From positions 1-64,000 of IMG/VR virus record IMGVR_UViG_3300032753_000007: a stretch of DNA of 64,000 bases; one strand, 5' to 3'. The translations under genes were made by a program, and so were the position numbers. Shown piece after piece: positions 24,581 through 38,413 of the stretch; position 1 is the first letter of the stretch, and every line of letters begins with the position of its first letter. The notes under the pieces were generated by a model. That model did no database searches and was not told the origin of the DNA. It saw nothing but the letters and a program-made list of their open reading frames with translations. The stretch comes from a virus.

Positions 24581-24619
24581 GCTTTATTAACCTCTTAAAA
24601 GGAGGACTCTATACTACCT

Positions 24620-24715
24620 ATGAAGGTAGTAGGCCTGCTCATTACCTTTATAGGTATCTGGGCAGCAACAGGATTATTGGGCATCCTGTTGTTTATAGCA
24701 ACATTGCCCCAATAG
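24620..24715 (+). CDS. 31-residue single-span membrane peptide (cassette 1)
   Basis: The short frame starts MKVVGLLITFIGIWAA and ends ATLPQ, almost wholly one hydrophobic membrane segment. The start codon lies in the four-base loop (ATGA) of an 8-bp hairpin (24612-24631). The ribosome site GGAGG is about 15 bases upstream, farther than usual but brought closer if the hairpin forms. Small single-span peptides in phages often act on the membrane or on membrane-bound defence proteins. The function here is unknown. Confidence 0.5.
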   Translation: MKVVGLLITFIGIWAATGLLGILLFIATLPQ

Positions 24716-24751
24716 GCACCATGACATGGATGTCGTGGATTTATTAATCAT

Positions 24752-24772
24752 TTCCACGATGAGTGGAAGGAG
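24752..24772 (+). promoter_or_regulatory. GATGA-loop hairpin with ribosome site, copy 1
   Basis: A 6-bp stem TTCCAC / GTGGAA closes the loop GATGA (24758-24762) and is followed directly by AGGAG, then ATG 24779. A mini reading frame starting in the loop (MSGRRFR) stops at a TGA that overlaps the main ATG (ATGA). The same element occurs at 25146, 33971 and 37958 with different stem sequences. Confidence 0.75.
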
Positions 24773-24778
24773 ATTCAG

Positions 24779-25153
24779 ATGAATCTTGTAAGGCGTACAA
24801 ACTTGGACAATGCTGTAAGGGGCATGTGTCCAAGACCTGTTCAGGATGAAGGGGTCTTTTTAGCTATGGATGGCATCAATGATTTACGTATACTGGGACA
24901 AAATCCCGTGTACGTAAAGTACGCCAACCTAGACCACCTACTTAAAGTAGGAAAGGTTTGGGTTGGCAAAGCTGGGGTAGATCCTGAATGGATGGAAATA
25001 AGATCTGTTAAGGATCTACCAAAATTTGCAGTATACGTCATCGAAGACTACGATGCGTGCGCTGCAAAAATCGATGCGGCACCTTACATGCCGCAGTTCT
25101 TCTTTACTCCTACCAATTTTAGAGGTAGGAAAACACTAAAAAGAATCCGCTGA
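24779..25153 (+). CDS. Unrecognised 124-residue protein (cassette 1)
   Basis: The product starts MNLVRRTNLDNAVRGMC; the GGAAGGAG ribosome site is 6-8 bases upstream. It is a soluble mixed alpha/beta protein with motifs VGKVWVGKAGVDPEW and VYVIEDYDACAAKI and a basic C-terminus (RGRKTLKRIR). I do not recognise a family. The coding DNA is folded almost end to end: 24802-24834 (CTTGGACA stem plus inner ATGC/GCAT), 24883-24918 (TTTACGTA stem) and 25076-25094 (GCGGCA stem). The stop TGA lies within the next GATGA hairpin. By position it is a candidate counter-defence protein. Confidence 0.6.
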   Translation: MNLVRRTNLDNAVRGMCPRPVQDEGVFLAMDGINDLRILGQNPVYVKYANLDHLLKVGKVWVGKAGVDPEWMEIRSVKDLPKFAVYVIEDYDACAAKIDAAPYMPQFFFTPTNFRGRKTLKRIR

Positions 25154-25166
25154 TGAAGCGGAAGGA
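25146..25166 (+). promoter_or_regulatory. GATGA-loop hairpin with ribosome site, copy 2
   Basis: Stem TCCGCT / AGCGGA closes the loop GATGA (25152-25156), followed by AGGA and ATG 25173. The upstream gene's TGA stop (25151-25153) lies in the stem-loop junction. A mini frame from the loop ATG (MKRKDVV) ends at a TGA overlapping the main ATG. Confidence 0.75.
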
Positions 25167-25172
25167 TGTAGT

Positions 25173-25256
25173 ATGAAAAAAAAAGATTATGGAGTCTTTT
25201 GGTCAGGGTGGAACAACACCCTGATCGGTATCCATCAGGATACCACGCCCGTGTAA
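25173..25256 (+). CDS. 27-residue peptide (cassette 1)
   Basis: The reading frame is MKKKDYGVFWSGWNN... ending TTPV, with an AGGA ribosome site from the GATGA hairpin. It is basic at the N-terminus and Trp/Gly-rich after it. Its stop overlaps the next start (TAATG), and this overlap lies exactly in the loop of a 7-bp hairpin (25245-25265). Two further perfect hairpins fill the body (25203-25224 and 25227-25244). The function is unknown. The placement of the signals supports real translation. Confidence 0.45.
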   Translation: MKKKDYGVFWSGWNNTLIGIHQDTTPV

Positions 25257-25330
25257 TGCGGGCGTTGGAATTACGCAGGAAGCGTGATTCCAAAATTTGG
25301 CTATGGAGAGCCAAAGCTGCTGAAGAGTAA
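25256..25330 (+). CDS. 24-residue basic peptide (cassette 1)
   Basis: The reading frame is MRALELRRKRDSKIWLWRAK... ending AAEE, a basic amphipathic helix by composition. It has no ribosome site of its own and starts at the TAATG overlap, so it would depend on coupled translation. The stop codon falls in the loop of the first hairpin of the cassette terminator. The function is unknown. Confidence 0.4.
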   Translation: MRALELRRKRDSKIWLWRAKAAEE

Positions 25331-25392
25331 AACTCTTTTACTATAGACTGATCTATTAATAGATCAGTCTATAGTCAGCAGTATTTTTTTTT
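25317..25392 (+). terminator. Cassette 1 terminator, three-way junction
   Basis: An outer stem (CTGCTG 25317-25322 with CAGCAG 25376-25381) encloses two hairpins: AAGAGT/ACTCTT (25323-25337), whose loop holds the last stop codon, and a perfect 36-base palindrome (25340-25375) centred on ATTAAT. A TA and a run of nine T follow. This is a very strong intrinsic terminator with the same plan as in cassette 2. Confidence 0.85.
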
Positions 25393-25468
25393 GTATTTAA
25401 AAAATATTTAATACATACATTATTTAAATGAAATAACATCATTAATAACTATTGAGGGTAAAAAATGA

Positions 25469-25690
25469 ATGAGGCTTAAGTTTATATGTGGTAGAATTGC
25501 TTTACATATGTGCGATGAAAGAATATGTATATATATTGGCTGGTGTACTGGCTTTTATATATTAAATAAAAGAGGAAATTATATAATCCAAGGAAGGATA
25601 TGGCATGGAGATTTCTTTCCTGTCTATGTAGATTTTAGTTTTTACGATTATTATCGAGAATACTGCTTTTTTCGTTTTCTTGAAAAATAA
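25469..25690 (+). CDS. Hypothetical small protein, 73 aa
   Basis: The product starts MRLKFICGRIALHMCDERIC; a GAGGG site is about 10 bases upstream. An ATG four bases earlier in another frame leads only to a 4-codon peptide. The protein is rich in Tyr, Phe and Cys (NYIIQGRIWHGDFFPVYVDF, YDYYREYCFFRFLEK). No family is recognised. It is the first gene after the cassette 1 terminator, with AT-only DNA upstream that could hold a promoter. Confidence 0.45.
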   Translation: MRLKFICGRIALHMCDERICIYIGWCTGFYILNKRGNYIIQGRIWHGDFFPVYVDFSFYDYYREYCFFRFLEK

Positions 25691-25713
25691 CATTTTTATG
25701 AAAGGAGTAATAA

Positions 25714-26415
25714 ATGAGCGATACATTTTCAGCAGGCACATTTTCACCAGCATTACCGATTAATGCTGTTAGTGAATTTGAAATTAAATTACTACAATTA
25801 TTTGGTATTGAAGTAAAGATTAACAATGATAGCATTACTGATGCTTTTTACTTTTATGTACCAGATGGGTTTAAATCCTTGTATCTAGACGACATTAATA
25901 TTGAATATTGCTGTAGCAATCTAGTAAACAACTATGCTAACTTAAATGATCCTTTAGCATTACGTTTGCTAGAAACAGCAAATAAGCTAAAACATAAAGG
26001 ACATACGATAGCTTCAATTATTTCTGCATTTAGTAATTGGACAGCTATTTTTCAAAAAATACTAAATAAGCCACCTTGTAAAGATATAGACTACATTAGT
26101 TGTAGTGGCAGCTACTGGTCTAATAAGTATTTACCTGATGAATTTGGTGGCATATATTACGTTATCACAAAAACAGGGTATCAGGAAATATATGGAAGAG
26201 AGGTTATTGATGAGTTACTAGAAAGAGAACAAAGAAAGAAAGATTTAATTACTGTAGTTACTTTCATGGAAAAATTATCCATAGTAGATAAAGAGTTAGA
26301 CAACACATTGTATCGATTAAAAGAACACATAGGCGATTGCTGTGAATTTTCCGACGGCTATTCAATAGAAGAGTTACCAGGTCTTTTTCAACCAACTGAG
26401 GAATTAAATGTTTAA
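25714..26415 (+). CDS. Hypothetical protein, 233 aa
   Basis: The product starts MSDTFSAGTFSPALPINAVSE; GAAAGGAG precedes it. It is soluble, with a central helical region (LRLLETANKLKHKGHTIASIISAF), a Gly/Tyr-rich segment (YISCSGSYWSNKYLPDEFGG) and a charged helical C-terminus. It overlaps the next gene by 8 bases, so the two are probably translated together. Codon use matches the phage background, unlike the cassettes. Function is not recognised. Confidence 0.6.
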   Translation: MSDTFSAGTFSPALPINAVSEFEIKLLQLFGIEVKINNDSITDAFYFYVPDGFKSLYLDDINIEYCCSNLVNNYANLNDPLALRLLETANKLKHKGHTIASIISAFSNWTAIFQKILNKPPCKDIDYISCSGSYWSNKYLPDEFGGIYYVITKTGYQEIYGREVIDELLEREQRKKDLITVVTFMEKLSIVDKELDNTLYRLKEHIGDCCEFSDGYSIEELPGLFQPTEELNV

Positions 26416-27136
26416 ATTATATATTAAAGATATTGATCTTATAGTTTATGCGGATAGATTAAGTACTATCCTAAATGTAGTTGAACTAGCACGAGTACAT
26501 ACCGACGTTACAGCTACGTCAATTGAAAGGGTAGAAAAACTGCCATACTTTAATACGGTTATTAAATATACCACACCTGGCAGACTCGACAATTACATAA
26601 ATATATTTAATGAGTTATGCAAAACGCATACTTTGTTTATAATGGCTGTAGTTAAAGATGGCGTATACAATGATGCGCTCTATTACGCAGATAAAGAAAA
26701 AAGCAATTCTATACCGGATAAAGATGCTGAAGATGCTTTATACGAAACACTTAAAAAACTAGATGATTTACAAAAAGCAGTAATTGAAACGTTTTACTAC
26801 ATAGGTAAAAAGGAAACAAACGCCGTAGATGGTATATTTCATATTTTTGAAAAAATAGAAAATTTGAAAACCACAATAAAATTGATAAAAGAATGTGGAT
26901 CTGATAACTTGGTAAGACTAGATCCTTTAAATGAATCTGAAAATCAAAATAAATGCACTAAAGATAATAATAGATGGAATCGGGCTGCGCCGACATCATT
27001 AGGTAGTTATTTAGCTAGGTGCTCATGCAATATCCCAAGAGACTTTATTTCAATAGATGAGCAGCGTTTAAATCAGATAATTGCCAAAGCAGTTTCTGAG
27101 TCTATTCGGGTATTACAACCGTATAAACGTAATTAA
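26408..27136 (+). CDS. Hypothetical protein, 242 aa
   Basis: The product starts MFKLYIKDIDLIVYADRLST; the ribosome site GAGGAATT lies inside the end of the preceding gene. A central helix (DALYETLKKLDDLQKAVIETFYYIG) and a Cys-containing C-terminal part (LARCSCNIPRDFISIDEQRLNQI) are visible. No family is recognised. The gene ends just before a 30-base perfect palindrome. Confidence 0.6.
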   Translation: MFKLYIKDIDLIVYADRLSTILNVVELARVHTDVTATSIERVEKLPYFNTVIKYTTPGRLDNYINIFNELCKTHTLFIMAVVKDGVYNDALYYADKEKSNSIPDKDAEDALYETLKKLDDLQKAVIETFYYIGKKETNAVDGIFHIFEKIENLKTTIKLIKECGSDNLVRLDPLNESENQNKCTKDNNRWNRAAPTSLGSYLARCSCNIPRDFISIDEQRLNQIIAKAVSESIRVLQPYKRN

Positions 27137-27161
27137 TCTAATTTAGTACTTTATCTTTTAC

Positions 27162-27191
27162 CATACACATGCATTTAAATGCATGTGTATG
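27162..27191 (+). terminator. Intergenic 30-base palindrome
   Basis: A perfect palindrome, CATACACATGCATTT followed by its complement, lies between two hypothetical genes. No T-run follows it. It could be a terminator for a phage polymerase or an mRNA-stabilising 3' hairpin. Confidence 0.45.
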
Positions 27192-27221
27192 AACTTACCC
27201 TTACCACAATAGGAAAAAACA

Positions 27222-27917
27222 ATGGCTGCTAAAAAATCTACTAAAACCGAATATAACTTTGATGAAAAAAATGAAATAAAACCAACATTTAATGATCTAA
27301 TGAATAATTGGAATAATTATTTATATCATCAATATCATGCACATAATGCTTATAGGCAGCAGCAAGAGCCCGTCACCCCATTAACTGCAAGCGTACAAAA
27401 TTCACCTTGGTATACACCAAATCACCCACAAGCATTTTATAGCATTAATGTGCCATTTGGCAACGTTACTATTAAAGATGTTATTGCTGGCATAACCTTT
27501 AAAGTTAACTCAATTGATGAGCGCATAGTTTTAAATACGCAGTTTCCTGAAAATAGCATTATCTATAAGATACTGTACTATTCACCACGATCACTCATTG
27601 ATAAGGGATGGAAAACAGGGGATATTAATTATATATCAGATAGCGATATAGTTAAGTGCTTCAAAAAACTAGAAACTGAAGCTATAGTAAATGTAGAAAA
27701 TTGGATATATGAATGTGAAGAATATGGTAAGCTTATAAGTCATTTTTACTATTGTGTAAAAAGAGAATACGCAAAAAGATATTTAAATGACATAGTATTG
27801 CCACATGCCTTTGAGTTTGAATTGCAGTATCCAATAATCAAAGAATATGTAGCAAAGTGCCTAACACTATACATGGATGAATACTTTGATAAGTTAAAAG
27901 ATTCTGTAAAAGAATAA
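27222..27917 (+). CDS. Hypothetical protein, 231 aa
   Basis: The product starts MAAKKSTKTEYNFDEKNEIK, preceded by CCACAATAGGAAAAAACA. The same leader words (TTACCACAAT, AGGAAAAAA) precede the next gene. There is a polar, His/Gln/Tyr-rich N-terminus (YLYHQYHAHNAYRQQQEP) and an acidic helical C-terminal half. No family is recognised. Confidence 0.6.
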   Translation: MAAKKSTKTEYNFDEKNEIKPTFNDLMNNWNNYLYHQYHAHNAYRQQQEPVTPLTASVQNSPWYTPNHPQAFYSINVPFGNVTIKDVIAGITFKVNSIDERIVLNTQFPENSIIYKILYYSPRSLIDKGWKTGDINYISDSDIVKCFKKLETEAIVNVENWIYECEEYGKLISHFYYCVKREYAKRYLNDIVLPHAFEFELQYPIIKEYVAKCLTLYMDEYFDKLKDSVKE

Positions 27918-27982
27918 TCATTAATACTGTTGTATGTAGTAACCTAAATAAACTTTTACCACAATCAATTAAGGAAAAAATA

Positions 27983-29635
27983 ATGAACAATATTGCTAAT
28001 ACACAACCACTGTATATTGTTAAAACTAACTCACTCACAAATCTTTTTGTAGGTCAAGATAGCGTGCAACATGCGCTTGAGGTACATAGAAGGATGTCTT
28101 ATGTTGTCAATGAATTTAGTATTGACATTTATGATTCACTATCTGACCCACGTAAAACCATGCTTTTGGCATCAGAGAAGATTCACAATGACCATATTTT
28201 AGGTGATTCTTTTAACATTTATTGTAGTGAATTAGTTGATCCATTATCAAGAAATAATAAATGTATTTACATATATGTTAAAAAGGATTTAAAAGAAGAT
28301 GATTTAAGTGAGCTGTATAAAATCCATGATAAAAATACCATATATGGGTATATTCATGGCTATGCTAATGCTTTAAAATTAAAAAATGATATATTAAAAG
28401 TATTATCTAATCATGCTAATGATATATCATTAACAAAAAAAATATTATCTAATTTTGCTGAAGAACCAGAAGAATCTATTAAAGTTTTATTAGACGTACC
28501 TCATATTGAATATGATAAAAATGTTTATAATGGGTTAATACCTTTAATTGACTATACAGACGACATTAGTATTATGGATTATGACCTTTATAAAACATAT
28601 AAATATGTTATTTATACTAATGAATATAATCATAAAATATTTGTTCCAGAAAAAGATATAAAAGAGTTTAAAGAATGGTTAGAGTCAAAAACATTAATTG
28701 AGTGTAGAGATGAGATTAACTCTTTAGAGCATAACTTTTGTACTACATATGGTAATAATAAGTATGATAATGCGTTAAAAAAGGATAATATGTCTACTTT
28801 ATATTTACTATCAGGAGAGTTTTTTGGATATGTTCATGGATATGATAATGCAATAAAGGTAAGAAACATTGTAGCAAGCATTTTAAATATAAGTAAAGAC
28901 TTAATCAATGTTACTGAATTTAAATGTGAGGAAAGTGTTAATATTTATAAAGAATCACTAAAAGTATCTGAAAATGGATTAATTGAAGGGCATACATTAC
29001 ATACCTTGATGAAAAAGCATAACTATAGTATCTACACAACTGATAGTATGCGCCCCATAATTATCCCATCAGAAGATGTAGAATGTTTTGATAAGTGGCT
29101 AATGTCAGACTCTAAGTCTGATCGTGGTGCCACACCATCTTTTGCTATAATGGATGAAACTAAAAACAATCTATTAACTAAAAACATTAGAGATAGAGCA
29201 ACTTATGTTGAACGCGGTTTAACATCAATAACTTATACGCAGGTATTTACTGGCTATGTCATTGCTGAATATCATGATGATAATGACGATAACTCTCATG
29301 TAACGCGTATATTAGTAAAAGAAGACGCATTTAGTTGGAATAAAGAACCATCGTCAGAGGAATGCTACATAGTCATTCAAGATCACTATGTTAACGGGAA
29401 TCTTAGCAGCCGAAAAGCAGCAGAGCTTGATGCACGCGATGTGCCTATGTTAGTAGGTTACTTTAGTCTAAAAAAGGCATACCAAGCAGGAATAAAACTG
29501 AATGCAAATGAAGATGTATTTGATAAATCCAATAAAGAAAAAGAACTTGCTGAACTACGTAAAACCATCCATGATATAGAAAGATGGTTAATTGACAGTG
29601 ATATTGAGTTCGTAATTGATGATCTAATTAGTTAA
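27983..29635 (+). CDS. Hypothetical protein with internal duplication, 550 aa
   Basis: The product starts MNNIANTQPLYIVKTNSLTN after AAGGAAAAAATA. The middle is duplicated: YGYIHGYANALKLKND (residues ~120) recurs as FGYVHGYDNAIKVRN (~285), and KYVIYTNEYNHKIFVPEKDI (~210) recurs as NYSIYTTDSMRPIIIPSEDV (~348). Each pair is about 140-165 residues apart. The C-terminus is helical (KELAELRKTIHDIERWL). No family is recognised. It ends at a strong terminator, closing the 25469-29635 group. Confidence 0.6.
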   Translation: MNNIANTQPLYIVKTNSLTNLFVGQDSVQHALEVHRRMSYVVNEFSIDIYDSLSDPRKTMLLASEKIHNDHILGDSFNIYCSELVDPLSRNNKCIYIYVKKDLKEDDLSELYKIHDKNTIYGYIHGYANALKLKNDILKVLSNHANDISLTKKILSNFAEEPEESIKVLLDVPHIEYDKNVYNGLIPLIDYTDDISIMDYDLYKTYKYVIYTNEYNHKIFVPEKDIKEFKEWLESKTLIECRDEINSLEHNFCTTYGNNKYDNALKKDNMSTLYLLSGEFFGYVHGYDNAIKVRNIVASILNISKDLINVTEFKCEESVNIYKESLKVSENGLIEGHTLHTLMKKHNYSIYTTDSMRPIIIPSEDVECFDKWLMSDSKSDRGATPSFAIMDETKNNLLTKNIRDRATYVERGLTSITYTQVFTGYVIAEYHDDNDDNSHVTRILVKEDAFSWNKEPSSEECYIVIQDHYVNGNLSSRKAAELDARDVPMLVGYFSLKKAYQAGIKLNANEDVFDKSNKEKELAELRKTIHDIERWLIDSDIEFVIDDLIS

Positions 29636-29645
29636 ACGACTATAC

Positions 29646-29690
29646 GTACTCTAGACTGGGATATATCCCAGTCTAGAGTACTGTTTTTTT
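29646..29690 (+). terminator. Intrinsic terminator
   Basis: A perfect 16-bp stem (GTACTCTAGACTGGGA with its complement, loop TATA) is followed by TG and seven T. It ends the group of hypothetical genes and isolates the SbcC-like gene downstream. Confidence 0.85.
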
Positions 29691-29732
29691 GGTTAATTAT
29701 ACCCATCATACTATGTCACTTTAGGAGATAGT

Positions 29733-32189
29733 ATGAAAATCTTATCGGTATATTTACGAGGATTTAAACCATTAGCATTACGAAATATCAATGAAATCAC
29801 TATTGATTTTACAGAACAAGTCACTTTAGTATTAGGTAGAAATGGTTGTGGTAAATCATCATTATTAAGAGAATCTACACCATTGCCTGCTGTCATGGAA
29901 GACTATTATGAAAATGGTGAAAAACGAATTACATTAGAGCATAATGGCCATCACTATGAACTAGTAACTGTATTAAAGAAATCAGCTAAACACAGTTTCT
30001 ATAAAAATGGCATTGCTTTATTAGAACACGGCATTACCAGTACACAACAAGCTTTAGTAGAAAGCGAATTAAACTATACTGATTTAATACATAAACTATT
30101 AATTGGTAAACTAACATTTACTACTATGTCAGTTGGTATGCGTCGTGATATATTAACAATGATTTCACCTTTAGATTTAAATTATGCTATTGAATTACAT
30201 AATAAAATTAAAGTACAAATTAGAGATAATCAAGCTATTATAAAACACCTTAATAGTAAACGTGGTGAAATAGAGCATAAGTTAAAAGACCTTAATCAAT
30301 ATAAGTATATTGAAGAGCAAAAAACTAAATTAGAAAATGAACTATCAGTAGTCATGCCATTTGCTTTATTAAAGTCATTACCTAGTCATCAGATACAAAA
30401 AAACATTAATGAAAGTCAACACTCATTAATGAGTTTACATAAACAACTACATAAAGAAGATGGATTATCAGTGCCTACTCGAGGTATTAATAATGTTACT
30501 GACTTAACAACTTACATTGGTCAATGCAATGGTGAATTAAACGCACTACAATCACGTATAAACGATCTTTATACAGAACTTGATGGATTAGTAGGGGTAA
30601 CACAATCGCTCTCTAATAATCATTTATCTACAACTGATATAGAAAGCTATATAGCACAATGTGATGCTATTATTAACGATTTTGTTGCTATGCAAATGCC
30701 TAATGTTGATGGTAATCTATCACTCTATAGTGACCAGTTAATTACACTTTATGATAGTTTTATTTCATTAGATGACATGTTATCTAAAACACATTACTTT
30801 ACAGTAAATGAAATTAAAGACATTAATCATGCTTATAATAAAATAAGTACGTTACAAGCACATGCTATTAATGAATTAGATAGCATAAAAGAAAAAGGTA
30901 ATCATTATAAGAATAATCATAGTGCTATTGAATGTCATCAATGTAAAACTAAATTAACATTAGAAGGGCAATCAGTTGAATTAGTCATTAATGATTTACG
31001 TAATAAAGCAACTGATTTAATTAAACAAATTAAATCATATAAAGAACAATTAGACATACTCACACCACAAGTAGAACATATCCAATTATTTAACCAAGTC
31101 ACTAATAGTCTTATTACATTAAAAAATAACATTACATTACCGAGTTTATTTTGGAATGAATTTACAATAGAGTCAATATTACAATATCCATCACTATTTT
31201 CTACGCATATTGTAAGATGGCAAAAAATAATTGAACAAACAAAAATAAAAAATAAAGCATTAGCTGATAGAGAAACTTATAAAGATGCATTATCAGCTTA
31301 TCAAAAATGTGGTGGTAGTGTTAGTATTCATATTGAAAAACAAAATAAGCTATTAGATCGTTTATTATTAAAACAACAAATTATTAAAAAAGATTTAGTC
31401 ATTTGTCAACATGTATTAAAACAATATATGCATTATACAGAAATGCATGATAAACATATTCAGTTATCAAGCTATATAGACATTCAATATAAATCGTTAA
31501 TTAATGCTTATATAAAAGAAGATGCTGAAGAAAAACGATCTAAGCTTTACCAAACATTATCAGATATTAACAATATCGTTACTAAAAAAGAAACATTAAC
31601 TAATGCACTTAATGAACTCAATAAAGAATACCATGCATTGTGTGGTAATCAAGAATGTTTATTACTATTAGAAAAAGAACTATCACCTAAAACAGGCATT
31701 GTAGCTGAACAAATGTTAGCGTTTATTACTAGTTATGTTGAACAGCTTACTGATATTTGTTCTCAGGTTTTTACTTATGATTTAACTATTAATCCTTGTA
31801 ATATGGATAATGGTAAGTTGGATTATACATTTAGTGTATTAGTAAAAGATGCTTTAGTAAAAGACATAAATATTCTTAGTTCAGGTCAAGCTGAAGTTGT
31901 TAATTTAGCGTTTATGCTAGTGCTTAGACAATATTTAAATCTAATGGATTATCCTTTATATTTAGATGAAATTGGTATTCATTTTGATTCACAGCATCGC
32001 AATAATCTTTCATTGTATATTAAACAAATATTACAAGAAGGTTGTTGTAGTCAGTTGTTTATTATAGAGCACTATACGCATGTACAAAACTTTTTACCTA
32101 ATCATGATACTATTGTGTTAGATGCTACTAACATTACTGTACCCGATAATTATAATCAACATACCACCATTAAAACAGGAGTAGATTAA
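29733..32189 (+). CDS. SbcC/Rad50-like ATPase (T4 gp46-type), 818 aa
   Basis: The N-terminal Walker A is at residues 35-43 (GRNGCGKSS). The C-terminal lobe holds the ABC signature (LSSGQAEVVNLAFML) and Walker B (YPLYLDEIGIHFDSQHR). Between them lie long coiled coils with a zinc hook at about residues 401-404 (CHQC), as in Rad50/SbcC. This family works with an Mre11/SbcD nuclease to process DNA ends in recombination and replication. No nuclease partner is visible in the window. Ribosome site AGGAGA. The stop overlaps the next start by one base. Confidence 0.85.
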   Translation: MKILSVYLRGFKPLALRNINEITIDFTEQVTLVLGRNGCGKSSLLRESTPLPAVMEDYYENGEKRITLEHNGHHYELVTVLKKSAKHSFYKNGIALLEHGITSTQQALVESELNYTDLIHKLLIGKLTFTTMSVGMRRDILTMISPLDLNYAIELHNKIKVQIRDNQAIIKHLNSKRGEIEHKLKDLNQYKYIEEQKTKLENELSVVMPFALLKSLPSHQIQKNINESQHSLMSLHKQLHKEDGLSVPTRGINNVTDLTTYIGQCNGELNALQSRINDLYTELDGLVGVTQSLSNNHLSTTDIESYIAQCDAIINDFVAMQMPNVDGNLSLYSDQLITLYDSFISLDDMLSKTHYFTVNEIKDINHAYNKISTLQAHAINELDSIKEKGNHYKNNHSAIECHQCKTKLTLEGQSVELVINDLRNKATDLIKQIKSYKEQLDILTPQVEHIQLFNQVTNSLITLKNNITLPSLFWNEFTIESILQYPSLFSTHIVRWQKIIEQTKIKNKALADRETYKDALSAYQKCGGSVSIHIEKQNKLLDRLLLKQQIIKKDLVICQHVLKQYMHYTEMHDKHIQLSSYIDIQYKSLINAYIKEDAEEKRSKLYQTLSDINNIVTKKETLTNALNELNKEYHALCGNQECLLLLEKELSPKTGIVAEQMLAFITSYVEQLTDICSQVFTYDLTINPCNMDNGKLDYTFSVLVKDALVKDINILSSGQAEVVNLAFMLVLRQYLNLMDYPLYLDEIGIHFDSQHRNNLSLYIKQILQEGCCSQLFIIEHYTHVQNFLPNHDTIVLDATNITVPDNYNQHTTIKTGVD

Positions 32190-33022
32190 TGACACCTAAT
32201 AGTAACTTAGTATCAGTAGGCATTGGTACTGTAGCACAAGATAAAAATGATAATAGTCGGTTTATATCTGTTTATTTATCAGAACAACATCCTTTTTATG
32301 AAGGTGATGTAACGAATGATGTTGCTGAAATAGAAAGAACGGTTATAGATGAACATGGCAATAGTACTAAACTAAATCTCTATAAAACAATGGCTGTTAA
32401 AGCTGATTGGTTAGAAGATGAAAGTAATAGAGAAACAGCACCCCATGTAAAAAAAGGTGAATCCGTTAATGTATTTGAAAAGAAAGATACAAGTGAATAC
32501 TATTGGCAGCCTCGTAAAAAGAATAACCCTACGCGTAGAGCTGAAGCCGTTACGTTTGCATGGAGTGCTGCTAGTCAAAGTAATGACATAGATATTCCTA
32601 AAACAGCAGATAATCATTATAGCGCTACTGTTGATGGTATTAATGGCCATATTACCATTACTACATCGAAAGATAATGGTGAAGTAGCTAAATACACTAT
32701 ACAAGTACAAGGTAAACAAGGACATGTTACTGTAGCAGATGATTTAGGTAATCTGATTCAACTAAACTCATCTACAAAAACAATTACATTATCTAATGGT
32801 GATAATACTTATGTTCAATTATCTGGCCCTAATATACTAGCAAATGCAAATGAAACTATTTTATTAAAAGCAAATAATATTGTATTGGACAGTAGTACCG
32901 TATCTATAACAGGTACAACACAAACTAACAATAACGTTAATGTAACCGGTGATGTTAGTGTAAGCGGTACTACTACAACAAATACAATTAATGCTTCGAC
33001 TTATATAGGGGATAATGATTAA
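32189..33022 (+). CDS. Baseplate spike / gp5-like protein, 277 aa
   Basis: The N-terminal part (NLVSVGIGTVAQDKNDNSRFISVYL) looks like the OB-fold of phage baseplate hub and spike proteins. The C-terminal half is built from short Val/Thr/Asn strands (GHITITTSKD, NTYVQLSGPN, NIVLDSSTVSITG) ending in repeated TN(N)NVNVTGDVSVSGTTTT units. These form a triple-stranded beta-helix needle in gpV/gp5-type spikes. It likely pierces the outer membrane during infection. It is coupled to the SbcC-like gene upstream and to the TSCPD gene downstream by one-base overlaps. Confidence 0.7.
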   Translation: MTPNSNLVSVGIGTVAQDKNDNSRFISVYLSEQHPFYEGDVTNDVAEIERTVIDEHGNSTKLNLYKTMAVKADWLEDESNRETAPHVKKGESVNVFEKKDTSEYYWQPRKKNNPTRRAEAVTFAWSAASQSNDIDIPKTADNHYSATVDGINGHITITTSKDNGEVAKYTIQVQGKQGHVTVADDLGNLIQLNSSTKTITLSNGDNTYVQLSGPNILANANETILLKANNIVLDSSTVSITGTTQTNNNVNVTGDVSVSGTTTTNTINASTYIGDND

Positions 33023-33483
33023 TGAGTACTAAAGTGATAGATAAAGAAATAGTAAGCTATAGTATTAAAAAAACAGAAGAGTTGACATTATCTGCTAAGC
33101 CTATTGTTCCTGAAGAACGTCCTGAATTATTAGAAGGCGTTACTTATAAGTTTAAAGCATTAGAGTTTGCTTATTATGTTACTATTAATGACATGGTACT
33201 AGAGAATGAAGATGGTAGTAAAACATATATTCCTTATGAAATATTTTTAAATAGTAAAAATGTAGAACACTATCATTGGATAGTGTGTACGATGCGAATT
33301 ATTTCTTTATACTTTAAAGCTAATGGCGATATAGTTAAATTAATTAGCGAATTAAAAGAAACACACGATGCTAGTGGTGGTTATTTTAAGAAAGGTGGAG
33401 GCAGAATGCCATCTGTTGTAGCTGAGTTAGGGTTTGTATTAGAAAAACACATTAATCGTTTTAAATCTGGAGATAAAAAATGA
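33022..33483 (+). CDS. Stand-alone TSCPD (NrdJ C-terminal-like) protein, 153 aa
   Basis: Residues ~32-145 closely follow the C-terminal part of adenosylcobalamin-dependent ribonucleotide reductases: RPELLEGVTYKFKALE, YVTINDMV, PYEIFLNSKNVEHYHWIVCTMRIIS, GGYFKKGGGRMPSVVAELG. The zinc-finger tail and the catalytic barrel of NrdJ are absent. Such isolated TSCPD-domain proteins occur in bacteria without an assigned role. Here it lies between a baseplate spike and an unknown protein, so it may be structural or regulatory. The family assignment is from memory of conserved motifs. Confidence 0.7.
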   Translation: MSTKVIDKEIVSYSIKKTEELTLSAKPIVPEERPELLEGVTYKFKALEFAYYVTINDMVLENEDGSKTYIPYEIFLNSKNVEHYHWIVCTMRIISLYFKANGDIVKLISELKETHDASGGYFKKGGGRMPSVVAELGFVLEKHINRFKSGDKK

Positions 33484-33866
33484 ACATCAATCAAATCGAT
33501 CAAGTGCCTGTAGCAGTGTTGCCTAGCATATTGCCTTTAATAACTGCTGCTATTAAGTCAGATATGTTCATTAAATTATCTATTATTGATAATGAGTTAG
33601 ATAGCTTTGAATTAAAATCTAAAGAAACAGGAAAATGCCTTTATATGGATCCATTAAAGTTTTTAAATGGTGAAACACATGCAGAAGCTTTAATACCTAC
33701 ACCACGTAATATTCCTGAACATAATCCACATGCCGTATATCAACCAAACATTAATGTAAGAAAGTGGGATACTGAAGGACTAAAAATCAGTGATTATCCA
33801 CCTGGTGCATCGCCCAGTGTATCTACTGTAGCTACTAATAACTTTCCAATATCACGCGCATACTAG
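33480..33866 (+). CDS. Hypothetical protein, 128 aa
   Basis: The product starts MNINQIDQVPVAVLPSILPL and overlaps the TSCPD gene by 4 bases (ATGA). It is a soluble protein with a Pro-rich C-terminal half (LIPTPRNIPEHNPHAVYQP, PPGASPSVSTVATNN) that looks extended. It may be a small baseplate component, judging only from the neighbouring spike gene. It ends just before the cassette 2 promoter block. Confidence 0.5.
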   Translation: MNINQIDQVPVAVLPSILPLITAAIKSDMFIKLSIIDNELDSFELKSKETGKCLYMDPLKFLNGETHAEALIPTPRNIPEHNPHAVYQPNINVRKWDTEGLKISDYPPGASPSVSTVATNNFPISRAY

Positions 33867-33884
33867 CATAGTAACGCAGTTTAT

Positions 33885-33920
33885 AAATTCAAATAATTTT
33901 AATATAGATATAGTTTACAT
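33885..33920 (+). promoter_or_regulatory. Cassette promoter-like block, copy 2
   Basis: This copy reads AAATTCAAATAATTTTAATA followed by TAGATATAGTTTACAT. It aligns base for base with the blocks at 24090 and 37871. Copies 2 and 3 differ at only a few positions, and the identity continues into the leader hairpin (GAATAAAGAATAATCTTTAT). Confidence 0.75.
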
Positions 33921-33921
33921 G

Positions 33922-33957
33922 AATAAAGAATAATCTTTATTAACGTATCGTTACGTT
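33922..33957 (+). promoter_or_regulatory. Cassette 2 leader hairpins
   Basis: A perfect 8-bp hairpin (AATAAAGA / TCTTTATT, loop ATAA, 33922-33941) is followed directly by a second one (AACGTA / TACGTT, 33942-33957). The first is identical in cassette 3. The second has a different sequence there but keeps its pairing. Confidence 0.65.
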
Positions 33958-33970
33958 TTAACGAATTAAA

Positions 33971-33989
33971 TCCCTGATGAAGGGAAGGA
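33971..33989 (+). promoter_or_regulatory. GATGA-loop hairpin with ribosome site, copy 3
   Basis: Stem TCCCT / AGGGA closes the loop GATGA (33976-33980), followed by AGGA and ATG 33996. A mini frame from the loop ATG (MKGRK) stops at TAA 33992-33994, one base before the main ATG. Confidence 0.75.
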
Positions 33990-33995
33990 AATAAC

Positions 33996-34331
33996 ATGAA
34001 AACTTTATATATCTGTAATGCCTTTTCTCTTCAAATGCTTGCGTTTGAAGAGAACATGATACGGGTAACCCCCGTACCATCTCCAGCCGCATGGTTGGAG
34101 AATGTCGAACCATTGTTCGACATTCTCCACTCTGCCGTCGGCCATGCCGACACAGCTGCTATATTTTCTTCCGTATTAAATATGGAAGTAAAAGAAAACA
34201 GGACTTCAATATCGATGTCGAAAGACATAGAGCTATTGGTGGGCCAGTACAGCGGCCCACGCTTGCCAGAGGGGGCAACAACGCTCCCTCAGGGAGCAAC
34301 AATTAAGTGGTTCCATGTTAAGCTAGTATAA
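33996..34331 (+). CDS. acrIII-1-like: AcrIII-1-type viral ring nuclease (DUF1874), 111 aa (cassette 2)
   Basis: The protein follows the DUF1874 family over its whole length: LYICNAFSLQML at the N-terminus, SAVGHADTAAIFSSVL at 46-61, NRTSISM and PRLPEGATTLPQGATIKWF at the C-terminus. In characterised members a histidine in the (S)A(I/V)GH motif is needed for fast cleavage of cyclic tetra-adenylate; here that is H50. Such enzymes act in the cytoplasm and shut off type III CRISPR signalling. The length matches the family. GAAGGAA precedes the ATG. The coding DNA is packed with hairpins, for example 34025-34054 (11-bp stem), 34097-34128 (14-bp), 34137-34151, 34215-34228 (GAAA loop) and 34239-34260. 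The stop codon sits in a terminator loop. Confidence 0.88.
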   Translation: MKTLYICNAFSLQMLAFEENMIRVTPVPSPAAWLENVEPLFDILHSAVGHADTAAIFSSVLNMEVKENRTSISMSKDIELLVGQYSGPRLPEGATTLPQGATIKWFHVKLV

Positions 34332-34397
34332 GCTAGCTTAACATGGTTAGCTAGGCATCAGTGATTAATCACTGATGCCTAGCCACTTTTCTTTTTT
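34305..34397 (+). terminator. Cassette 2 terminator, three-way junction
   Basis: An outer stem (AAGTGG 34305-34310 with CCACTT 34383-34388) encloses a 13-bp hairpin (CCATGTTAAGCTA, 34313-34346), whose loop carries the TAA stop of the ring nuclease, and a perfect 34-base palindrome (34350-34383) centred on ATTAAT (the last base is shared between stems). A T-rich tract (TTTTCTTTTTT) follows. This is the same plan as cassette 1. Confidence 0.85.
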
Positions 34398-34479
34398 CTA
34401 TTTTTTTTTTCATTTACATTATATAACTATATTATTACTAAGGTAAATAACATATCTATTAAGTTTAGGAGTATAAATA

Positions 34480-34521
34480 ATGGATACGTTTTCAAAACCT
34501 AATACCAAAGAAATCATATAA
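34480..34521 (+). CDS. 13-residue leader peptide candidate
   Basis: The frame MDTFSKPNTKEII is preceded by TTTAGGAGTATAAATA, a good ribosome site at normal spacing. It ends 30 bases before the next gene's start. It could be a leader peptide or a decayed gene start. Evidence is limited to the ribosome site. Confidence 0.3.
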   Translation: MDTFSKPNTKEII

Positions 34522-34551
34522 TGCAGTATATCACAATAAGGAATGAGTATA

Positions 34552-35181
34552 ATGAATTTTAATTCTCAACAAGCAAAAAATAACACAATAATACATAAAC
34601 CATATACGTCTTTGTATTTAAATCAGTTATTAGCAGATAATAAGTTAATACTTAATTCGCGTAGTGAAGAAGTATTCTTCCCGTTAGAGATTGCACCTGC
34701 TAACGCATCAGTTAAAATTCCATGTCTTTATGATAAATCTATTTGTAAAAATAAACCAATATCTTCTAAATGGTTTTATAAAATGGAAGATCTGTTTAAT
34801 GATTTATTAGATGAAGAAAACTGGGATTGGGGTTTACCTTATCCTACATTAAATGCGTTTCAAGCTTTCTTTAACGTGCTGAATGATTTAGACCCACCAC
34901 GTAAACCAACTATTGGCGTTACATCTGATAGTGCGTTAACAATGTATTGGATTAATACAAGAGCTACTGTAGTCATTAAATTAAAAGACATCGATAATAT
35001 AACTATGCGGTTTAAAGTAACTAATGATGATTTAGTAGAGCTAACATCCGATTACATTAATAAAGCAGAATCATTTAAATGGATTTTTGAAATTCATAAT
35101 TTAAATGATGTATTACTGGATATTAAAATAAAGTATAATATTATACCTAATGTTTTTAAAATTGACGGTTTAATTAATTAA
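34552..35181 (+). CDS. Hypothetical protein, 209 aa
   Basis: I choose ATG 34552 (MNFNSQQAKNNTIIH) because AAGGA lies 9 bases upstream. The earlier in-frame ATG 34543 touches that site. The product is soluble, with a Trp/Asp segment (LLDEENWDWGLPYPTLNAFQAF) and a C-terminal part of alternating strands. No family is recognised. It begins a plus-strand run of small genes that continues to 37009. Confidence 0.6.
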   Translation: MNFNSQQAKNNTIIHKPYTSLYLNQLLADNKLILNSRSEEVFFPLEIAPANASVKIPCLYDKSICKNKPISSKWFYKMEDLFNDLLDEENWDWGLPYPTLNAFQAFFNVLNDLDPPRKPTIGVTSDSALTMYWINTRATVVIKLKDIDNITMRFKVTNDDLVELTSDYINKAESFKWIFEIHNLNDVLLDIKIKYNIIPNVFKIDGLIN

Positions 35182-35193
35182 AGGAAATCAGTT

Positions 35194-35376
35194 ATGTCTA
35201 TTAAAGAAATACTTAAACTATTTGTTTATACATTAACACTATTTATTGCTGTTAATGTTTTGTTTTATATTCAATTAGCAACAGTTGATGCAGAAACACT
35301 TATTATATCAAGTATAGTTTGTGATTTGTATTTTTTAATCGTTTATCTTTATCGAGTGAGATTTCTATGGAAATGA
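35194..35376 (+). CDS. Small membrane protein, 60 aa
   Basis: The product starts MSIKEILKLFVYTLTLFIAV, with AAAGGAAA upstream. Two hydrophobic segments (residues ~8-27 and ~35-52) suggest a helical hairpin in the inner membrane. It overlaps the next small membrane gene by 10 bases. No family is recognised. Pairs of tiny membrane proteins in phages can act in lysis or in superinfection exclusion, but nothing here decides between these. Confidence 0.55.
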   Translation: MSIKEILKLFVYTLTLFIAVNVLFYIQLATVDAETLIISSIVCDLYFLIVYLYRVRFLWK

Positions 35377-35492
35377 TTAGGTATGTAAGATTTTGTATGA
35401 TCCCTATAGTAATTGGCATAATCGCATTTTTGATTATTACTTGGGATGGATGGAGTGATGACAATGGCGACGATTACAAGCATGATATATAA
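35367..35492 (+). CDS. Small membrane protein, 41 aa
   Basis: The frame starts MEMIRYVRFCMIPIVIGIIA with one membrane segment (residues ~10-26) and an acidic tail (DGWSDDNGDDYKHDI). It overlaps the 60-residue membrane gene by 10 bases in another frame. An N-in arrangement with the acidic tail outside is likely from the charge pattern. No strong ribosome site is seen, so it is probably coupled to the preceding gene. Confidence 0.5.
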   Translation: MEMIRYVRFCMIPIVIGIIAFLIITWDGWSDDNGDDYKHDI

Positions 35493-35504
35493 GGAAAACA
35501 GATT

Positions 35505-36335
35505 ATGAAAAAAATAGCATTAGTAATAGCCGCTACTGAAGATCATTTGATTGGATTAGATGGCAAAATACCCTGGCACATTACAAAAGACCTACAGCGA
35601 TTTAAACACGTCACTATGGGCGGTGTCGTTATCATGGGCAATAATACCTGGAAGTCATTAAACTGCAAGCCATTACCAGGTAGAATTAATATTGTTATTA
35701 CACATGAAGATAATCTATTGCCTATACCTGAAGTACCACAAACAGATGTAGCGTATAGATTTATGTTTAATTCAGATACACCTACACCTGAAGCCTTATT
35801 AAACTTACCACAATTTAATGATTATAAACTATTTATTATTGGCGGCGCTAGCCTATATAGTAAATTCTTTAAATACTGTAATGAAATACATTACACTCAT
35901 ATCCATGATATATTAGGTACTGAAATAGATCCTGAACATAAAGGCGTTTATTATGAGTTACCTGAAATACATGAAGATGAATGGACTCAAGCTATTGTAA
36001 GTGACTATACTGATCACTCCTACGAACTCTTTATAAAAGCCAAAACACCTGATACACTTGAAGAAGCGTGGAATAGGTTTTATGATATTTTAATATCTAA
36101 TAAGGATAACTACGATGAGCGTTTTGTAAAGGCCGTTAAAACGACCTATATGAAAGGTGCATTAGATGCATTACAGATTTATTCATTAATGATAATGGAT
36201 GGTAAATGTGATTGTCCATCAACTATAACTGAAAAATTAGTTGGTCCTATCACAGTAACACTGGGTGTCGATAAATTTATTGGGTTATTGACTAAGCTGA
36301 TTATGGAACCAACTGCAGAGAATGAAAATGAGTGA
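35505..36335 (+). CDS. folA-like: Dihydrofolate reductase with C-terminal extension, 276 aa
   Basis: Residues 1-~178 are a complete dihydrofolate reductase: ALVIAATEDHLIGLDGKIPW, with the proton-donor acid at D29 (TKDLQRFK), the cofactor motif VVIMGNNTWKSL, then LPGRINIVIT and LFIIGGASLY. The enzyme reduces dihydrofolate to tetrahydrofolate with NADPH and supports thymidylate synthesis in the infected cell. About 95 further residues (TLEEAWNRFYDILISNKDN...) form a helical extension absent from typical enzymes of 160-190 residues. AAGGAAAACAG precedes the ATG. Confidence 0.88.
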   Translation: MKKIALVIAATEDHLIGLDGKIPWHITKDLQRFKHVTMGGVVIMGNNTWKSLNCKPLPGRINIVITHEDNLLPIPEVPQTDVAYRFMFNSDTPTPEALLNLPQFNDYKLFIIGGASLYSKFFKYCNEIHYTHIHDILGTEIDPEHKGVYYELPEIHEDEWTQAIVSDYTDHSYELFIKAKTPDTLEEAWNRFYDILISNKDNYDERFVKAVKTTYMKGALDALQIYSLMIMDGKCDCPSTITEKLVGPITVTLGVDKFIGLLTKLIMEPTAENENE

Positions 36336-36384
36336 TGATAAATTACCAAATACTCTTATACCCATTCCAAAGAGAAAAAAATAA
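36328..36384 (+). CDS. 18-residue peptide candidate
   Basis: The frame MSDDKLPNTLIPIPKRKK overlaps the end of the reductase by 8 bases and its stop overlaps the following ATG (TAATG). The only support is this tight overlap on both sides, which would allow coupled translation through the junction. Confidence 0.25.
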   Translation: MSDDKLPNTLIPIPKRKK

Positions 36385-36737
36385 TGAATGACGATTACTT
36401 TATTTCAAAGAAAGCAAAACTTTTATTTATCTTGTTTAATACATCAGGTAAACTACGAAGAGAATTGTTAGGTGTAACTTATACTACGTATATAACTGTA
36501 GCTTCAGCTAAGCTGTGGTACGATGGTACACTTGCTGTATTAGAGTGTCCAACCACATTAAATGAAAATGAATGCGATAGTGAGGCAATGCTTTCAGCTA
36601 AACTACAATTAGCACGTGTATGTGAGGATGAGGGCGTTTATCATCCTGAAGTCATTTCGTCAGCAAAATCCATATTACGTTGGATTTATAAAGAAGAAAT
36701 TTTAACCTATCATCAATCTTACTTACAAACAAAATAA
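36384..36737 (+). CDS. Hypothetical protein, 117 aa
   Basis: The product starts MNDDYFISKKAKLLFILFNT; it is a soluble, mainly helical protein (AMLSAKLQLARVCEDEGV, VISSAKSILRWIYKEEIL). Its stop overlaps the next start by one base (TAATG). No family is recognised. Confidence 0.55.
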   Translation: MNDDYFISKKAKLLFILFNTSGKLRRELLGVTYTTYITVASAKLWYDGTLAVLECPTTLNENECDSEAMLSAKLQLARVCEDEGVYHPEVISSAKSILRWIYKEEILTYHQSYLQTK

Positions 36738-37009
36738 TGACATTAGTTATTCAAGAAAAATACTTCTCATTTGAAACAGAAACCATTAAAGAAAAAATAG
36801 AACGATTAACAGTACATCGCAATAACCTCATGGAGCAATATGGCAATACTGCTGCAAGTGAACGAGAGAAATGCGTGTTATTAGAATTTGATAAAGATAT
36901 TAAAAGACTCAAAACACAATTGAGTCCTAAAAATGCTGCTAAAGAAAAAATAGAAAAGGAAGAAATTGATAAAAAGAATTGGGGATATTTAGGTAAAGTA
37001 CATGGTTAA
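36737..37009 (+). CDS. Hypothetical coiled-coil protein, 90 aa
   Basis: The product starts MTLVIQEKYFSFETETIKEK. The middle is a long charged helix with heptad-like spacing (IKEKIERLTVHRNNLMEQYG... LLEFDKDIKRLKTQL) ending in a Lys/Glu-rich tail. This suggests dimerisation or a scaffold role; no family is recognised. It overlaps both neighbours by 1-8 bases. Confidence 0.5.
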   Translation: MTLVIQEKYFSFETETIKEKIERLTVHRNNLMEQYGNTAASEREKCVLLEFDKDIKRLKTQLSPKNAAKEKIEKEEIDKKNWGYLGKVHG

Positions 37010-37169
37010 AAAAGATATTGTTCTTGGCGGAACAAGATATAATGTTACATATGAGCAAAAAGAAAATGAAATCATAATTCATTCTTTAATTGCTGGTGAT
37101 AAACCCATGTCAGTAAATCTTTGTATGCCTAGCGTATTAGCGTTAATTAAAAAGAAGTTAACAGAATAA
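37002..37169 (+). CDS. Hypothetical protein, 55 aa
   Basis: A 55-codon frame starts at ATG 37002, overlapping the upstream stop by 8 bases: MVKKDIVLGGTRYNVTYEQK ... LIKKKLTE. The alternating pattern near the start suggests a small beta-sheet protein. It ends just before a 32-base palindrome, which fits a last gene in the run. Confidence 0.45.
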   Translation: MVKKDIVLGGTRYNVTYEQKENEIIIHSLIAGDKPMSVNLCMPSVLALIKKKLTE

Positions 37170-37177
37170 ACTAACCA

Positions 37178-37209
37178 CTATACTAGATGTCATATGACAT
37201 CTAGTATAG
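37178..37209 (+). terminator. Palindromic terminator-like hairpin, 32 bases
   Basis: A perfect palindrome (CTATACTAGATGTCAT with its complement) follows the 34552-37169 gene run. The downstream bases are CCTTATTATAGG, not a clean T-run, so termination strength is uncertain. Confidence 0.55.
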
Positions 37210-37229
37210 CCTTATTATAGGATAATCAA

Positions 37230-37553
37230 ATGAAATTTATAGATATAATAAATCATTCAGTACCAAAACATAATCTAATTGATGTAGTGCATCATTCTTG
37301 GATAATGTGCTTTGGTCATAAAACATCAAGTAATAATGACTTTTGGTTTCCCTATCAAGGTTATGGCCCAAAAAGAATGCGTATACCTATTAGGTGTTTA
37401 TCTATTGATAATGATTGGACAAAAGTTTATAAGCGTTCAAGAAAACCGTTTTGTGATATAGTCGCAAAACGATATTATAATAAGCCTGTAGCTATATCAG
37501 GTAAGTGGATTAGTAAAAAAGAAAAAGCTAAACCATGGGGCTATATTAGATGA
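37230..37553 (+). CDS. Hypothetical basic protein, 107 aa
   Basis: The product starts MKFIDIINHSVPKHNLIDVV, with ATAGGATAATCAA upstream. It is strongly basic and aromatic (FWFPYQGYGPKRMRIPIRCL, YKRSRKPFCDIVAKRYYN), which suggests nucleic-acid binding. It overlaps the next gene by 4 bases (ATGA). No family is recognised. Confidence 0.5.
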   Translation: MKFIDIINHSVPKHNLIDVVHHSWIMCFGHKTSSNNDFWFPYQGYGPKRMRIPIRCLSIDNDWTKVYKRSRKPFCDIVAKRYYNKPVAISGKWISKKEKAKPWGYIR

Positions 37554-37882
37554 GCTATATTAATAATTGGCTATATCACCATTTGCGTGATATTCAGTTT
37601 AATAAGATACTAAAGATTAATAAAAAACGCCCTAGAGTAGAAAAGAGAATGAGGAAAAGAATTAAACCTACTAAAACTAAACTATTTATTAATGTAACCT
37701 ATCGATCTTATCCTCTTATAAGGTGGTATAAAGAGCTATTAAGAGAAGAGATAGATGATATTATTTTTAATAAACAAAGACTATGGATTAAAGATAGTAT
37801 TAGAGAGCGCTATAACTGGTACAGTGGGTTACGTGCTAGAGTGATTGCTTGTAAAAATAAGGATTTTTATAAATTCAAATAA
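37550..37882 (+). CDS. Hypothetical very basic protein, 110 aa
   Basis: The product starts MSYINNWLYHHLRDIQFNKI and is very rich in Lys and Arg (KKRPRVEKRMRKRIKPTKTK), followed by helical segments. This composition fits binding to DNA or RNA. It is coupled to the preceding gene by ATGA overlap. Its last four codons run into the cassette 3 promoter block, so that block is partly coding. Confidence 0.5.
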   Translation: MSYINNWLYHHLRDIQFNKILKINKKRPRVEKRMRKRIKPTKTKLFINVTYRSYPLIRWYKELLREEIDDIIFNKQRLWIKDSIRERYNWYSGLRARVIACKNKDFYKFK

Positions 37883-37906
37883 TTTTCATATATATATAGT
37901 TTATAT
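37871..37906 (+). promoter_or_regulatory. Cassette promoter-like block, copy 3
   Basis: This copy starts AAATTCAAATAATTTTCATA and continues TATATATAGTTTATAT; it aligns without gaps with 24090 and 33885. The first 12 bases overlap the end of the upstream gene, so the block is conserved even where the surrounding context differs. Confidence 0.75.
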
Positions 37907-37907
37907 G

Positions 37908-37943
37908 AATAAAGAATAATCTTTATTTAGTTAACGTTAACTA
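37908..37943 (+). promoter_or_regulatory. Cassette 3 leader hairpins
   Basis: The first hairpin (AATAAAGA / TCTTTATT, 37908-37927) is identical to that of cassette 2. The second is a 16-base palindrome (TAGTTAACGTTAACTA, 37928-37943), different in sequence from cassette 2 but in the same place. Both then continue to an AACG word and the GATGA hairpin. Confidence 0.65.
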
Positions 37944-37957
37944 TTAACGCATTCATA

Positions 37958-37978
37958 TGCTGCGATGAGCAGCAAGGA
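37958..37978 (+). promoter_or_regulatory. GATGA-loop hairpin with ribosome site, copy 4
   Basis: Stem TGCTGC / GCAGCA closes the loop GATGA (37964-37968), followed by AGGA and ATG 37988. A mini frame from the loop ATG (MSSKDIRS) stops at a TGA that overlaps the main ATG (ATGA). Confidence 0.75.
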
Positions 37979-37987
37979 TATACGATC

Positions 37988-38326
37988 ATGAACAAGTTCA
38001 ATAAATTTGCCACTGACTTTTCAACAGGTTTCAAAGTGGGTTATCAAAACCCTCATCGCCTGCCAATGTATTGGGGAATGCTGAAGCTGCATTGGTACGC
38101 AGCTTTTATTAAAGCCTCATATGAGGCTAAACACTCAATTGAAAAACAAAAAGTCCCCCAGTGGGCACTGGGGATCGTGCACCGCGCTTGCGCGGTGCAC
38201 GATAAAAGAATCAACTGGGCTACCAAAAAATTTAATGGAATAGTCTTAGATGGTTGGATGGACTTCGGCTTAGAAGCGCTTAAAGCGCATCTAAGCAGAC
38301 AGATAAGGAGAGCCGAAAGAGGCTAA
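37988..38326 (+). CDS. Unrecognised basic 112-residue protein (cassette 3)
   Basis: The product starts MNKFNKFATDFSTGFKVGYQ, with AAGGA upstream. It is basic and Trp/His-rich (YWGMLKLHWYAAFIKASYEA) with a helical C-terminus (LEALKAHLSRQIRRAERG). No family is recognised. The coding DNA is a chain of hairpins: 38084-38105 (AAGCTGC stem), 38113-38128 (palindrome), 38156-38173 (CCCCAGT stem), 38174-38203 (14-bp, GC-rich) and 38268-38296. Codon use is GC-richer than in neighbours. It is a candidate counter-defence gene because it shares promoter, leader and style with the ring-nuclease cassette. Confidence 0.6.
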   Translation: MNKFNKFATDFSTGFKVGYQNPHRLPMYWGMLKLHWYAAFIKASYEAKHSIEKQKVPQWALGIVHRACAVHDKRINWATKKFNGIVLDGWMDFGLEALKAHLSRQIRRAERG

Positions 38327-38413
38327 CCTTACGTCGGCTTCCAGATTACTTTAAAGTAATCTGGAAGTCAATACTGCTGCAGAGATTAATCTCTGCAGCA
38401 GTATTTTTTTTTA
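38311..38413 (+). terminator. Cassette 3 terminator with stacked palindromes
   Basis: Three hairpins follow one another: AGCCGA/TCGGCT (38311-38339), which encloses the stop codon, a perfect 28-base palindrome (38339-38366), and a perfect 30-base palindrome (38373-38402) centred on ATTAAT. Then come A and a run of nine or more T. The convergent minus-strand gene ends inside the T-run. Confidence 0.85.

Follow-up and report, generated by a model that had tools for sequence, protein, structure and literature searches.

The coat operators of RNA phages (MS2-type) are hairpins at the ribosome-binding site (RBS) that lie inside hairpin-dense messages, an arrangement similar to the one described here. 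Among phages with DNA genomes, T4 uses a hairpin operator close to the RBS to control gp43, and the loop of this operator differs between phages (PMC3014915). The boxB hairpin of P22 carries a GACAA loop that forms a GNRA-like pentaloop with its third base turned out and is bound by the N peptide (PMC12550061). In jumbo phages that encode their own RNA polymerase (RNAP), AT-rich, phage-specific early promoters are known (PMC7598289). A wider question in nucleus-forming jumbo phages is the way in which their own earliest messages are marked, exported, protected and translated.

The 64,000 nucleotides analyzed here (the window) come from a virus record of 109,752 bases (~109.8 kb). The source virus is a phiKZ-like jumbo phage, with a multisubunit RNAP beta subunit encoded at 57206-59302 and a phiKZ gp29-like tail sheath gene in the same record. 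The best matches of the RNAP subunit are ~39% identical, and none comes from a close named phage. Alignment of the RNAP recovered as closest relative G003, a 220-kb contig from IMG/VR whose RNAP subunit is 57% identical, and protein-pattern searches with a 111-aa cassette protein (see below) or with the RNAP subunit alone found nothing. An earlier note on this DNA had reported four hairpins with a GATGA loop directly before RBSs. All four are present on the plus strand of the window, and a fifth and a sixth copy came from the remaining 45.8 kb of the record, which the note did not cover; the sixth was found by a covariance model built from the first five (match 91782-91805):

24752-24768, plus strand: copy 1a, TTCCAC-GATGA-GTGGAA; the Shine-Dalgarno sequence (SD) AAGGAG overlaps the last stem bases and extends to 24772
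25146-25162, plus strand: copy 1b, TCCGCT-GATGA-AGCGGA; SD AGGA at 25163-25166; contains the stop codon of the preceding ORF
33971-33985, plus strand: copy 2, TCCCT-GATGA-AGGGA; SD AGGA at 33986-33989
37958-37974, plus strand: copy 3, TGCTGC-GATGA-GCAGCA; SD AGGA at 37975-37978
67911-67925 of the record, outside the window: fifth copy, GCTGC-GATGA-GCAGC; precedes an SD and an ORF
91783-91797 of the record, outside the window: sixth copy, GCTGC-AATGA-GCAGC; precedes an SD and an ORF

The SD lies 0-1 nt from the hairpin in all six copies, with the start codon 10-13 nt after the hairpin, and the AGG(A) said to follow at once is indeed found in the four window copies, as an overlap with the stem end in copy 1a and directly adjoining the stem in the other three. 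That the loop is always GATGA holds for these four; record-wide it holds for five of six, the sixth being AATGA. Likewise, the stems differ completely within the window except at pair 3, which is C-G throughout, and this description fails for copies 3, 5 and 6, which have the stem GCTGC in common and are therefore not fully independent. The element was also said to occur only in gene cassettes, and all six copies do lie inside cassettes, with none ahead of any ORF elsewhere in the record. The note would have been refuted by hairpins just as common in shuffled DNA or upstream of random genes, and they are not: the four GATGA hairpins of the window (stem of at least 5 bp) compare with 0.12 expected from 200 first-order Markov sequences, both strands counted, and the expectation drops to ~0.005 for a GATGA hairpin followed by AGG.

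Changed stem bases with kept pairing, which the earlier note took as a sign of a functional RNA, were borne out by the six-copy alignment. Four of the six stem pairs change on both sides while pairing is kept, 92% of alignment cells are paired, and none of 500 shuffles, nor any slid register, attains the covariation score of 0.91, the compared sequences being paralogous copies from one genome. Four different stems occur among the copies, each perfectly paired. In sequence context, the hairpin forms with a probability of 0.96-1.00 and its loop is unpaired in 6/6 copies. It is near certain that the hairpin is a real RNA element.

The cassette of every copy combines an upstream motif, a leader hairpin, at least one small ORF and terminal palindromes with T-runs. 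The upstream motif is AT-rich, is common to the cassettes and reads roughly AATTCAAATAATTTTCATATATATATAGTTTATATGAATAAAG; we infer that it acts as a promoter. The window holds three cassettes with the following features:

24091-24125, plus strand: cassette 1, predicted promoter motif AATTCAAATATTTTTCATATGGATATTGTGTTTAT, a motif found in five cassettes here and at seven G003 sites
24126-24143, plus strand: cassette 1, 5' leader hairpin GAGTAAA TAGC TTTACTC, as read from the sequence
24170-24580, plus strand: cassette 1, ORF of 136 aa with a TTG start, PHROG 12854 (unknown function), nucleotidyltransferase-like in appearance, hairpin-dense, no GATGA hairpin before it
24620-24715, plus strand: cassette 1, small hydrophobic ORF of 31 aa
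24779-25153, plus strand: cassette 1, ORF of 124 aa, no family, the most structured ORF of the record
25173-25256, plus strand: cassette 1, small ORF of 27 aa after copy 1b
25256-25330, plus strand: cassette 1, small basic, Arg-rich ORF of 24 aa, its start overlapping the previous stop (TAATG)
25340-25375, plus strand: cassette 1, terminator palindrome with 18-bp arms and a T-run
33886-33920, plus strand: cassette 2, predicted promoter motif (the shared motif)
33922-33941, plus strand: cassette 2, 5' leader hairpin AATAAAGA ATAA TCTTTATT
33996-34331, plus strand: cassette 2, hairpin-dense ORF of 111 aa, STIV_B116-like/DUF1874 (AcrIII-1 viral ring nuclease family)
34313-34383, plus strand: cassette 2, two consecutive palindromes at the end, a T-rich tract after the second
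37872-37906, plus strand: cassette 3, predicted promoter motif (the shared motif)
37908-37927, plus strand: cassette 3, 5' leader hairpin AATAAAGA ATAA TCTTTATT
37988-38326, plus strand: cassette 3, hairpin-dense ORF of 112 aa, no family
38338-38405, plus strand: cassette 3, two loopless palindromes at the end, a T-run after the second

Two cassette 1 genes have no GATGA hairpin before them. The Arg-rich ORF has a longer in-frame TTG reading from 25199 that would give 43 basic residues and looks ARM-like. With a G+C content of 0.44-0.48, the window cassettes stand out from the phage (0.33), and those at 67.9 and 91.8 kb have ~0.36. Since RNAP-encoding jumbo phages with AT-rich early promoters are known, the cassettes are probably expressed early. 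AcrIII-1 ring nucleases (DUF1874 family) counter type III CRISPR; the cassette 2 protein matches PF08960 above the cut-off as well as PDB chains 2x4i, 6scf and 2j6b, and is likely an AcrIII-1-type viral ring nuclease that would antagonize type III CRISPR. The other cassette proteins are small and have no assignment. The same phage, with its many perfect loopless terminator palindromes, encodes an SbcC-like protein (palindrome-specific nuclease subunit) at 29733-32189.

Much of the cassette coding sequence itself consists of serial perfect hairpins (24170-25330, 33996-34331 and 37988-38326, and 67939-68310 and 91810-92202 of the record). Measured against codon-preserving shuffles, four of the five strongest structure outliers among 93 ORFs are those starting at 24779 (z -8.6), 37988 (z -5.7), 24239 (z -5.7; 24170-24580 read from an inner ATG) and 33996 (z -5.6). 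The remaining one of the five is the tail sheath gene (72733-75597 of the record, minus strand), which lies outside the cassettes and has a z of -5.8 at the gene start; the ORF at 67939 of the record has a z of -3.9. Perfect stems cover 38% of the ORF at 33996, as against 7% when shuffled. Loop sequence varies among these coding hairpins and is never GATGA; the loop is therefore constrained only at the RBS position. A strand test on the coding helices (G-U vs A-C mismatches) gave 3 vs 2, too few events to tell selection on RNA from selection on DNA. In the literature on DNA phages, we found no report of selection on whole messages.

G003 has the cassette promoter class at seven strong-match sites, with the leader hairpin conserved, and four of its cassette ORFs (158909, 149236, 139549 and 23778) are among its top five by stem coverage. 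A hairpin of its own abuts the SD in six of the seven strong-match units, for example GUCCUC-AUA-GAGGC followed by AGGAG, or GUCCC-UAUAA-GGGC followed by AGGAG. These hairpins are weak (-3.5 to -4.6 kcal/mol, not better than shuffles) and their copies mostly near-identical, so they attest a shared layout and give no independent proof; their conservation could stem from recent duplication. The architecture is thus common to both phages, and the GATGA loop is known only from the source phage. The cassette genes of the source phage have no homologues among those of G003, beyond a weak match to G003 sequence immediately ahead of a cassette, and this suggests conservation of the format and not of the cargo. 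Hairpin-dense coding sequence on non-homologous genes in two phages further suggests selection on the whole message. About 20 sites of another motif, TATACATTATCTA, precede ordinary genes of G003 and probably mark its main early promoter, so the cassette promoter seems to be a separate or extended class. The contig also contains repeated palindromes, AGAGCCTAGGCTCT with 8 counts and TAGCCTAGGCTA with 10 counts (both strands), which are probably terminators sharing a core.

The more distant relatives G005 and G009 have no such cassettes and no hairpin-dense ORF extremes. A search of phage genomes with a covariance model, suggested in the earlier note, covered 25 related or jumbo-phage records (4.7 Mb) and gave only two matches that exceeded 20.8 bits, with no SD following either; with only these two strong matches and none at an RBS, the hairpin is not a widespread phage family. 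GATGA DNA patterns in IMG/VR gave high-GC chance matches only. A first promoter pattern had two matches in IMG/VR, of which the one examined lay in coding-like sequence and not before a cassette; with a second pattern, G003 was the sole real match. No Rfam family matched the window at gathering score, and no tRNAs were found.

Our favored reading, in which we place about even confidence, is that the hairpin acts in cis as an RNA element within a regulon of early accessory genes, its loop being read beside the SD by a trans-acting factor that tunes translation. The unit of this regulon would be the promoter-to-terminator cassette of accessory genes. The sequence shows a stem of 5-6 bp, maintained by compensatory changes, that presents an unpaired (G/A)AUGA loop immediately upstream of the SD and does not itself sequester the SD; the loop may adopt a GNRA-like pentaloop fold in which the U is flipped out, GA[U]GA. 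Five copies are sequence-compatible with such a pentaloop, and the AAUGA of the sixth fits GNRA poorly. A factor encoded by the phage or associated with the ribosome would recognize the loop at the 30S docking site, and its binding would raise or repress translation of the cassette genes together. The mRNA, folded from leader to terminator, would constitute a specialized message format that probably also slows decay. The suggestion that a phage or host protein binds the element to switch translation is, on this analysis, plausible. Several observations weigh against the favored reading: GATGA is confined to one phage, the relatives and the 4.7 Mb of jumbo-phage records searched yielded no such RBS element, two cassette 1 genes lack the hairpin, three copies share a stem, and the G003 hairpin at the RBS is weak.

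Because the whole message is folded, the main rival is that the hairpin is one of many structures shielding the mRNA from RNases, its loop staying constant only because a pentaloop of this kind is stable and resists nucleases. Every cassette has leader hairpins, hairpin-dense ORFs and double palindromes, and G003 shows the same format, which gives this stabilizing role a real if minor probability; yet it accounts less well for the constant loop, as the loops of the coding hairpins vary freely without ever being GATGA, and a stabilizer has no need to abut the SD, nor to sit inside an operon away from the 5' end, as two copies do. We rank passive insulation, antitermination and neutral duplication below stabilization. 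A passive aid to translation, in which the hairpin frees the SD from competing structure or serves as a ribosome standby site with no trans factor involved, fits copy 1b, where forbidding the hairpin lowers SD accessibility from 0.98 to 0.36; the other five copies show no clear effect and the constant loop is left unexplained, making this explanation unlikely. SD insulation as a general role was rejected on the same count of one copy in six.

That the hairpin is the boxB-like component of a nut site for N-type antitermination, and acts on transcription, draws on the GNRA-like pentaloop class it would share with P22 boxB and on the Arg-rich 24-aa ORF at the end of cassette 1. We consider it very improbable, as the position is tied to the SD in every copy, the terminator follows copy 1b after 180 nt, jumbo phages rely on RNAPs of their own, and the Arg-rich peptide has no match among PDB sequences; inspection of the leaders found no consistent boxA-like sequence shortly upstream. 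Equally poor prospects attach to a functionless, recently duplicated leader whose loop is kept by descent: the promoter and leader hairpins are common among the cassettes and three copies share a stem, but four different, perfectly paired stems around an unchanged loop are unlike neutral divergence. Sporadic AT-rich hairpins with other loops do occur adjacent to SDs, but with the low expectations given above (0.12 and 0.005) and two further copies beyond the window, the probability that these are chance hairpins near RBSs is close to nil. We further rejected a RegB (GGAG) cleavage site (GGAG occurs in two of six copies only), an RNase III site (the stem is too short) and an upstream reading frame from the ATG in the loop (it has no SD and its frame is not constant).

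Beyond the trans-read translational element favored here, we tentatively entertain a broader possibility: that in one lineage of jumbo phages a separate promoter, a hairpin in the leader, a hairpin tag of constant loop at the RBS, serial coding hairpins and end palindromes together form a special message format for a class of accessory, perhaps anti-defense, genes. A lineage-specific factor might then read the hairpin tag and license translation, export or protection of the message, for instance against RNA-targeting defenses. The constant-loop tag before several unrelated cassette genes, among them the likely antagonist of type III CRISPR, offers a defined RNA that can serve as bait and in reporter constructs.

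Set against known systems, the likeness to AcrIII-1/DUF1874 ring nucleases concerns the cargo protein of cassette 2, with its predicted activity, and not the RNA element. In the MS2-type operator, the stem holds the SD or start codon and carries a bulged A, whereas in the present element the SD is found immediately 3' of the stem, and the genome is dsDNA. As with the early promoters of RNAP-encoding jumbo phages, a phage-specific AT-rich motif lies upstream of presumed early operons (PMC7598289); the difference is that G003 has its main motif plus a separate, extended one before the cassettes, both of them candidate promoters. The boxB of lambdoid phages (P22, lambda) likewise has a 5-bp stem and a pentaloop, and GAUGA could fold like the GACAA of P22 (PMC12550061), but boxB functions in antitermination within a nut site, while the present element abuts the SD and is not accompanied by a consistent boxA. 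The gene 43 operator of T4 and RB69 is also a short RBS-proximal hairpin, and its loop carries the specificity (PMC3014915). Judged as an RBS-hairpin operator, the element lies at the RBS in 6/6 copies and has compensatory stem changes and a conserved loop. The T4/RB69 operator serves one autoregulated gene from ~40 nt upstream of its start; in the source phage, by contrast, one element stands before six unrelated genes.
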